A DNA stretch of 64,000 nt from Oscillospiraceae bacterium. GTDB lineage: Bacteria > Bacillota > Clostridia > Oscillospirales > Acutalibacteraceae. Below the pieces are notes generated by a model. It worked only from the letters and a program-made list of their open reading frames with translations, was not told where the DNA came from and did not search any database. The DNA is taken from contig WQWM01000001.1 of assembly GCA_009785335.1 (NCBI GenBank), positions 157,202 through 221,201 of the forward strand, written 5' to 3'. Position 1 is the first letter of the stretch, and the number at the start of each line of letters is the position of its first letter. The position numbers and the translations under genes were made by a program. Shown here in pieces: positions 17,273 through 64,000 of this stretch.

Positions 17273-17364
17273 TGGCGGAGAGCAAGGGATTCGAACCCTC
17301 GGTACGTTTAAGGCGTACACACGATTTCCAATCGTGCTCCTTCGACCAACTCGGACAACTCTCC
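17273..17364 (-). tRNA. tRNA-Ser (anticodon GGA), CCA encoded
   Basis: Minus strand GGAGAGTTGTCCGAGTTGGTCGAAGGAGCACGATTGGAAATCGTG...GGTTCGAATCCCTTGCTCTCCGCCA; long variable arm. Confidence 0.95.
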
Positions 17365-17376
17365 ATATAATACACT

Positions 17377-17405
17377 ATTATAGCACAGCCCTGCGATGAT
17401 GTCAA
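17377..17405 (-). promoter_or_regulatory. sigma-A promoter of tRNA-Ser
   Basis: TTGACA-17-TATAAT on minus strand. Confidence 0.75.
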
Positions 17406-17474: not shown

Positions 17475-18158
17475 TTACTTAAAGAAAAAGCTTAAGCCGG
17501 AGAACAACGCTGCCGTGCCTGCGCTGCTGGCTGCTTTGCCGGCCAGTGCCGCCGTTTGCGCTTGCAACAGCAGGGCTTCTTCGCTGTTTGCTTCTAGTTG
17601 CCACCTGTGCAGCTGTTCTTCGTAGAGATTCACGGCTTCTTTCCATGATTCCGCCCTGAAGTTGACTAAGTAAGAGTAAATCTCATTCAGCGCAAGCGGA
17701 TAGCGATAGTTTGGCGGAATCAGGTTTACGTACTCCATTTTTGCGATGAGTGCATCTTCAAACGGTTTGCGTTTATAGTCCATATAACGCTGCAAAACGC
17801 CCTTTTCCTCAAACAGTTCTCGCAATTTTAACGACGTTAAAGACAATGGTATCTTGCCGTTTAGTATACGATTGATGTCTTTTTTCTGCTTTTCACTTAT
17901 GTCGAAGCAGGCGTTTAACTCATAGAAATTGCGAAATTCGCATACATCGGATATTTCTTCACGTTTTATCAACTGGTATAGATATTGGTTCGCGGGAATT
18001 GCTTTATATTGCATCTGAAGCGCATCAACAAAATCCGATTCCGATGCTTCCAAATACGGCGTAATCACCGAATTCGCGGTTTGGATGACCTCTAACAGCG
18101 TTGGTGTATCTAGGGTTAAAACCGACGCTGCTTGCGGAATGGAAAGTGCTGTTGACAT
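17475..18158 (-). CDS. hypothetical protein behind a poly-G-tract promoter
   Basis: GAGGAGA RBS; MSTALSIPQAASVLTLDTPTLLEVIQTANSVITPYLEASESDFVDALQ...; no family recognised. Confidence 0.75.
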   Translation of the reverse strand: MSTALSIPQAASVLTLDTPTLLEVIQTANSVITPYLEASESDFVDALQMQYKAIPANQYLYQLIKREEISDVCEFRNFYELNACFDISEKQKKDINRILNGKIPLSLTSLKLRELFEEKGVLQRYMDYKRKPFEDALIAKMEYVNLIPPNYRYPLALNEIYSYLVNFRAESWKEAVNLYEEQLHRWQLEANSEEALLLQAQTAALAGKAASSAGTAALFSGLSFFFK

Positions 18159-18192
18159 AACAAAAAATCTCCTCTGTGAAATAGTAACTAAA

Positions 18193-18223
18193 ATTATACC
18201 CCCCCCCCCCTTGTTTTTGTCAA
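18193..18223 (-). promoter_or_regulatory. promoter with 12-nt poly-G tract in the -35/-10 spacer
   Basis: Minus strand TTGACA (18218-18223), AAAACAA + G12, TATAAT (18193-18198); spacer 19 nt. Confidence 0.7.
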
Positions 18224-18278
18224 GCCTTTTCGACAAAGTTTTTCATGTTTGTGAAAAACGACGAAAAACGCGCAGCAC

Positions 18279-18307
18279 TTGACAGGCTTTGCATTTCGTG
18301 ATAATAT
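18279..18307 (+). promoter_or_regulatory. sigma-A-like promoter for 18341 CDS
   Basis: TTGACA-17-TAATAT. Confidence 0.5.
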
Positions 18308-18340: not shown

Positions 18341-18565
18341 ATGAACAAAGTAATTTCAATCGCACTGTTGGTTGCTGGGTTGATTTTGGTCGGCATGTCT
18401 GGCTACTACATCGTGCAAATCATCCGCCTTAACCTGTGGGATGACGTGATTTTCCGCGTGGTTAGCGTGCTGGCGTTCATCGGCGGCGGCGTTTTTGTCG
18501 GCCTCAGCAGAACAATACGAAACCAACAAACCTTGATAGAGCTGCTGCGTGACAAAGGAGAATGA
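18341..18565 (+). CDS. small two-TM membrane protein
   Basis: MNKVISIALLVAGLILVGMSGYYIVQIIRLNLWDDVIFRVVSVLAFIGGGVFVGLSRTIRNQQ... Confidence 0.7.
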   Translation: MNKVISIALLVAGLILVGMSGYYIVQIIRLNLWDDVIFRVVSVLAFIGGGVFVGLSRTIRNQQTLIELLRDKGE

Positions 18566-63066: not shown

Positions 63067-63831
63067 TTATCCTAACCAATTTATTATCCCAGCTATAACT
63101 CCAACTATAGAGGCAAAACCTACTAGCAATAGCGCTTGACCGACAACATCCACAATCTCGGGGACGTTTCTATCCCCAATTATAGTAGCCAGAATCAAAA
63201 ACACCACAACAGAAAAAATCAACGTAACACTGCTTATAATCAATAACCACGGTGTTGTTGTCCCGCCGCTGCTTGCACCACGCGCAAACCGCGCTTCGGC
63301 AGCAGCCATGTCATTGCACAGGCGGCCTTGGGCAAAGGCAAAGGTTGTGCCCGCAATACCCGCCGAGATATCGGTGGGCAGGTTCATTGTTGCTTCAATG
63401 CGCAGCAAATTCACGCCGCGCACATCAACGTGAATGTACCTTGGCAGTGCAGTTGCATTGATAGTAACTCGCTGCAACAATCGACCATCGCCAAAAAACG
63501 CAATGCTTCCTCCACGAATCCCTGTGCCATCTATGCGTCCAATGTATCCGCTTAATGTCGCATGCTGTCCTCTGAGATTATGCAAAGTAAAAGAACTTCC
63601 CGTGCTTAAGGGACTTGCTTGAACTGGAAAACGCAATGCATTTGCATAGGATACGCCGCCCATAACCGCGCTTCCAACAACGGCATTCCGTCCGATACCC
63701 GTGCTACCAAGTTGATGCGGCGGCACGGCTTGCGTAAGTATCACCTGCCGTGCGCTGGCTTGCGTTGCCAGAGGAATGAGCATCAGCACCGCCAATGCCA
63801 CAGCGAGAATTGATTTGATTGTCTTCTTCAT
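63067..63831 (-). CDS. secreted membrane-anchored protein with NPCBM-like region, behind poly-G promoter cassette
   Basis: Signal peptide MKKTIKSILAVALAVLMLIPLATQASA; LSGYIGRIDGTGIRGGSIAFFGDGRLLQRVTINATALPRYIHVDVRGVNLLRIEA; two C-terminal TM segments. Confidence 0.75.
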   Translation of the reverse strand: MKKTIKSILAVALAVLMLIPLATQASARQVILTQAVPPHQLGSTGIGRNAVVGSAVMGGVSYANALRFPVQASPLSTGSSFTLHNLRGQHATLSGYIGRIDGTGIRGGSIAFFGDGRLLQRVTINATALPRYIHVDVRGVNLLRIEATMNLPTDISAGIAGTTFAFAQGRLCNDMAAAEARFARGASSGGTTTPWLLIISSVTLIFSVVVFLILATIIGDRNVPEIVDVVGQALLLVGFASIVGVIAGIINWLG

Positions 63832-63864: not shown

Positions 63865-63887
63865 ATTATACCCCCCCCCCCCCCCCC
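63865..63887 (-). promoter_or_regulatory. -10 box abutted by a 17-nt poly-G tract
   Basis: Minus strand G17 then TATAATTTTAGTTATTATTTAACAAAGGAGATG; same leader as at 18158-18210. Confidence 0.6.
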
Positions 63888-64000
63888 TTTTTTTAATTTT
63901 TTTCTCTTTTTTTCTTCGGGGGCAATATAGAGAAAAAAAAGATGGGGCGGGGGGAGGGTTCATGTTTACGGAGAGAGGACTTTCTTTCCTCTTCATGCAA

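Follow-up and report, generated by a model that had tools for sequence, protein, structure and literature searches.

A candidate phase-variable promoter with a poly-G spacer, one of a genome-wide set, in an Oscillospiraceae bacterium

The poly-G promoter and its gene

The window, as we call the whole 64,000-nucleotide stretch of DNA analysed here, carries on its minus strand a gene for a 227-aa protein preceded by a promoter that contains a run of G (Table 1). The original prediction read this promoter as TTGACA-AAAACAA-G12-TATAAT, and re-reading the sequence confirmed both the arrangement and the spacing, 7 + 12 = 19 nt, which ten G would bring to 17 nt. The homopolymer is located between a consensus -35 and a consensus -10 box, as in the spacer-type promoters of porA and TP0126, and the gene has a ribosome-binding site at the right distance from the promoter, another feature of that type. 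From the tract to the ATG there are 40 nt, with GAGGAGA in between, and the layout at sister loci is similar. The 2.25-Mb genome has a single exact match to TTGACA-Gn-TATAAT and none to the reversed pattern. Only two G-runs longer than 6 are found in the window, both in the context of a poly-G promoter, and two runs together give 13 overlapping G9 matches against a mean of 0.2 in shuffled windows. The promoter of the tRNA-Ser gene that adjoins the 3' side of the controlled gene provides a built-in control for ordinary spacing.

Table 1. Features of the two poly-G loci and their neighbours, in window coordinates
Feature	Position	Strand	Remarks
Conserved upstream element, TTCGTC...CACAAACATGAAAAAC	18238-18265	minus	upstream of the -35 at 18223-18218
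-35 hexamer, TTGACA	18218-18223	minus	read from sequence
AAAACAA, between -35 and G tract	18217-18211	minus	7 nt
G12 homopolymer within the -35/-10 spacer	18199-18210	minus	whole spacer 18199-18217, 19 nt
-10 hexamer, TATAAT	18193-18198	minus	read from sequence
Shine-Dalgarno of controlled gene, GAGGAGA	18168-18174	minus	read from sequence
Controlled gene	17475-18158	minus	ORF of 227 aa, ATG at 18158
tRNA-Ser (GGA) gene with its promoter	17273-17405	minus	promoter 17405-17377, perfect TTGACA-17-TATAAT
Divergent ordinary promoter, TTGACA-17-TAATAT	18279-18307	plus	without G tract; for small gene 18341-18565
G17 tract	63871-63887	minus	directly before TATAAT (63865-63870); second family member in the window
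Gene behind G17 tract	63067-63831	minus	254 aa, signal-peptide-like N-terminus

The 227-aa product has no match in Pfam, NCBIfam or PADLOC, and a defence-gene identity was rejected for lack of a PADLOC match. Unlike most products of the sister genes, it has no apparent signal peptide. Its C-terminal ~85 aa are common to one paralog in the genome and to homologs in three sister species, and the proteins sharing this helical domain have membrane segments. A structure model of the product is all-helical, at low confidence (mean pLDDT 60).

Related promoters in the genome

The genome containing the window (G000) is a 2.25-Mb assembly in 58 contigs and has 33 G-runs of at least 8 nt. In 15 of these, TTGAC precedes the run by 2-9 nt on the G strand, where ~0.5 would be expected (binomial P ~2e-19), and a sixteenth run has TTGAT in its place. 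Five further runs lie near contig ends, leaving only the -10 side readable (TATAAT, TATACT and similar). The reversed-pattern control for the poly-G promoter gave no matches in the genome. Because some G-runs are two halves of one locus, the number of distinct promoters is ~15-18. Alignment of the degraded sequence beyond the tract joins contigs C37 and C31 into one locus, and the same alignment pairs the end of C27 with the end of C1, that is, with the G17 tract of the window; the end of C12 probably pairs with the start of C52, judging from the same kind of sequence. Window position 64000, near the G17 tract, is the last of the contig, and the -35 side of this second promoter would be the TTGACAAAAT-G16 at the end of C27. 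The leader TATAATTTTAGTTA is common to the two window loci. The 254-aa protein encoded behind the G17 tract has no Pfam match. A different architecture is seen at C17:32107, where a G13 run follows a perfect TTGACA-17-TATAAT at a distance of 11 nt and hence lies in the 5' leader, not in the spacer.

In the 13 readable genes behind poly-G promoters of this genome, an ATG with a ribosome-binding site lies 32-56 nt beyond the tract, and many of these genes have signal-peptide-like starts. The products include small secreted-protein families, an RCC1-repeat protein, an SH3/M23 peptidase and lipoprotein-like sequences, and the genes are mostly not paralogous. The arrangement of vlhA, with a repeat upstream of the core promoter of paralogous genes, was not found; the tract here lies inside the core promoter. 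At C1:123790 and C12:65443 in this genome and at C23 in the related genome G010, the promoter, the leader and the signal peptide (MNMKKLLATLLAVLMLA) are conserved and the mature secreted proteins are divergent, as if a promoter-signal-peptide cassette had been reused.

The promoters fall into two branches by their upstream sequence. In the first, which includes the 17475-18158 locus, TTCGTCNNNTTNCACAAACNTGAAAAACTT...AAAANGC stands before TTGACAAAT. CACAAA starts 30 bp before TTGAC in most members, this locus included, 31 bp before it in C16, and 40-41 bp before it, a further helical turn away, in C30 and C46. The genome has five copies of the exact core CACAAACWTGAAAAAC, all of them upstream of a poly-G promoter, so the element was rejected as a feature common to the genome at large. 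Conservation in this branch fades further upstream, and the shared sequence therefore looks like an element with a function or a cassette that was copied, rather than the trace of a gene duplication. Members of the second branch carry AAATT.TT.A.A.AAAAGAC-TTGACTTTTC or TTGACTTGTTAAC. The upstream element of the first branch suggests, in our inference, an additional factor or an UP-like contact.

Ordinary promoters of this genome keep their spacing closely: in 188 kb, the spacer measures exactly 17 nt in 25 of 32 promoter-like pairs that lack poly-G, the tRNA-Ser promoter of the window among them. The six poly-G promoters that are readable on both sides have spacers of 11, 15, 19, 19, 20 and 20 nt, and none of the readable tracts of the genome gives the 17-nt spacer of the predicted ON state. 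This scatter around 17 resembles independently slipping switches whose consensus is mostly off the optimum, but it falls short of proof, because in what is apparently a short-read assembly the lengths called for long G-runs are unreliable. The sequence past long G-runs is degraded, and the two contigs that share the C31/C37 locus disagree, G12 against G14, a difference inseparable from sequencing error. Of the 33 long G-runs, 20 have a contig end less than 300 bp away (P ~3e-28), so the poly-G promoters seem to be a main cause of the fragmentation of the assembly.

Poly-G promoters in other genomes

Among the 14 genomes of the genus that were compared, G004 has four poly-G promoters and G010 has one, and a tract in G002 is cut by the start of a contig. 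The promoter of G010 matches C1:123790 in the -35, the -10, the leader and the signal peptide; the mature proteins have diverged, so the two are a shared cassette more than strict orthologs. The tract is G9 in G010 (17 nt) versus G12 in C1:123790 (20 nt). Another copy in G002, at C152:619 (L251), has the same upstream element and -35, and its tract is broken up by C, A and T (AAATGGCGGGGAGGGTGG); perhaps this copy is a natural locked form. Orthologs in Streptobacillus, with proteins 95-99% identical, share their promoter boxes and have a tract of G10 or G11; between L273 and L283, whose proteins are 99% identical, the flanks are the same and the tract is G11 versus G10. The evidence for tract-length differences thus comes from promoters related to that of the 17475-18158 locus and from Streptobacillus orthologs.

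A poly-G promoter match was found in 5 of 200 genomes of the family and 5 of 399 genomes of a phylum sample, and the reversed pattern in none. A wide scan of one genome per species, covering 85,462 species, matched at least 120 stretches, some of which, with extra spacer bases, are presumably chance matches. Gut-associated assemblies of Bacilli and Clostridia make up most of the matches listed, which also include Candidatus Ancillula, Streptobacillus notomytis, Pumilibacter, Hydrogenoanaerobacterium and Treponema ruminis, the last with one match in a complete genome. In genomes picked for having a match, where counts give multiplicity and not prevalence, there are up to 40 copies per genome: 25 in Ancillula, 18-40 in rabbit-gut Bacilli and 3-16 in Streptobacillus species, with none in the reversed controls. 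The Ancillula tracts range from G9 to G15 between nearly constant flanks. A phage-borne element was rejected, as 2.9 million viral contigs yielded only 3 matches and the leader had none.

Four genomes of uncultured rabbit-gut Bacilli (G437, G438, G450 and G451), 0.9-1.3 Mb each, carry 18-40 near-identical TTGAC(T/A)CC-G7..10-TA(T/A)TATATAAT promoters per genome. Where the downstream genes were read, they encode similar membrane-anchored proteins, and the set is possibly a large switching antigen family. In G437 the range of tract lengths is narrow, G8/G9.

A length-switched spacer and its alternatives

We consider it probable (roughly 0.85), on the basis of sequence comparison, that the G12 tract gives a sigma-A promoter an adjustable spacer and lets slippage switch it, and that this promoter is one of ~15-18 of its kind in the genome, mostly in front of genes for secreted or membrane proteins. 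Replication slippage would insert or delete Gs in the tract, and the changed number of G would shift the distance between the -35 and -10 boxes off the 17-nt optimum or restore it. The downstream gene would be turned up or down in a heritable and reversible way. In this scheme, the assembled G12 state with its 19-nt spacer is probably low and G10 would be high, with G9 and G11 intermediate. The original prediction had proposed such a slippage-variable promoter. That proposal is supported, although not proven, by the family context, the genome-wide sisters, the spacers scattered around 17 nt, the differing tract lengths at related promoters elsewhere, and the interrupted tract in a related species. 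The interrupted G002 tract has the form that a locked copy would be expected to have. Slippage within the population, transcription that depends on tract length and a role in surface diversity would all follow from the model. Some observations speak against it: the 227-aa protein has no apparent signal peptide, the tract lengths are consensus calls, no readable tract of this genome gives a 17-nt spacer, and the G8/G9 range of G437 fits a fixed spacer too.

Alternatively, the promoter could be constitutively weak or dependent on a factor, with the long G-rich spacer tolerated or put to structural use, as a stiff GC spacer or an upstream activator site, and with length variation as neutral noise. 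The conserved element at 30 bp or 40-41 bp before the -35 does suggest a bound factor, and the tracts of G437 are nearly uniform. However, pure runs of G8-25 between constant flanks at many loci would be hard to maintain without selection for mutability. In addition, the spacers run from 11 to 20 nt against 17 nt in ordinary promoters, and the differences between species fall within the run. A fixed spacer would leave the observed lengths unexplained. We therefore regard this alternative as improbable. Switching at the level of translation is still harder to sustain. In that case the gene would extend upstream across the tract, as an ORF of 253 aa that starts at a TTG and reads the tract as Gly4, and indels would shift the frame. 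The frame of the ATG is indeed open through the tract up to the TTG at 18236, but this TTG has no Shine-Dalgarno sequence whereas the ATG at 18158 has a good one, and the tracts are framed by -35 and -10 boxes wherever these are readable. Because the frame is closed between the tract and the ATG in 7 of 13 family members, we think translational switching very unlikely. That the run is an error product of sequencing or assembly, as the crowding of G-runs at contig ends, the degraded sequence after long ones and the discordant C31/C37 lengths might suggest, is very unlikely, because the flanking boxes are conserved and the same architecture is present in assemblies of named isolates (Streptobacillus notomytis, Hydrogenoanaerobacterium, Pumilibacter) and in the complete Treponema ruminis genome, and the 18199-18210 tract lies with clean flanks in the interior of a 221-kb contig; error touches exact lengths, not existence.

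If the spacer is a slippage switch, the set as a whole may form a dispersed phase-variable regulon, a tentative proposal to which we give rather less than even odds. One promoter cassette, consisting of the upstream element, TTGACA, poly-G, TATAAT, the leader and sometimes the signal peptide, would have spread by copying to the genes of ~15 proteins, most of them unrelated and largely secreted. The whole set could be gated by one common factor, with each tract slipping independently of the others.

Homopolymer-based promoter switching has several precedents. The Bordetella fim promoter region, to which the original prediction pointed, contains a poly-C tract and is turned ON or OFF by its length. 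The C tract of fim re-spaces an activator-binding site relative to the -10; unlike fim, the promoter described here has a consensus -35 and its tract in the -35/-10 spacer, and its exact parallels are Neisseria porA and Treponema TP0126. The outer-surface gene porA of Neisseria meningitidis has poly-G between the -35 and the -10 and its transcription is set by the spacing relative to 17 nt (PMC7864442); its variation by poly-G spacer length goes back to van der Ende 1995, as cited in PMC5084427. The location of our tract is like that in porA. Unlike porA, a single promoter of one porin gene, the present set comprises ~15 promoters of mostly unrelated genes in an unrelated lineage, with switching predicted, and one branch of it has a conserved upstream element. 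In Treponema pallidum, several surface genes of one genome are under poly-G promoters; TP0126 has poly-G between the -35 and the -10 and is best transcribed at 17 nt, and a different rule applies to tprE/G/J, for which 8 or fewer G are permissive (PMC7864442). The placement of several genes of one genome under poly-G promoters is shared with TP0126 and tpr, in a different phylum. To our knowledge, no common upstream element is known for the TP0126 and tpr promoters. The vlhA genes of Mycoplasma gallisepticum have many promoters in one genome, with conserved flanks around a variable GAA repeat (PMC6258824). The many promoters per genome and the conserved flanks are like those described here; unlike vlhA, where the trinucleotide lies ~40 nt upstream of the transcription start in one gene family, the tract is in the spacer and the genes are varied. 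The mechanism is therefore known, and what appears new is its use in a dispersed multi-gene promoter set, with the conserved upstream element in one branch, in these lineages; within an open-access library, no report on promoter sets of this kind was found for Clostridia, gut commensals or Streptobacillus.

Most of what is known about phase variation by homopolymers in promoter spacers comes from a few pathogens. Should all promoters of the set switch, surface and secreted proteins of uncultured gut bacteria would be controlled by tens of on/off promoters that act independently, and independent slippage under a shared factor would give thousands of expression combinations. This would amount to unrecognised diversity within strains, hidden by consensus metagenome assemblies, which even break at the tracts. 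TTGAC-Gn-TATAAT offers a simple signature by which the contingency genes of uncultured lineages can be listed. Promoters of this design are also present in gut Bacilli and Clostridia, in termite-gut Ancillula and in Streptobacillus.
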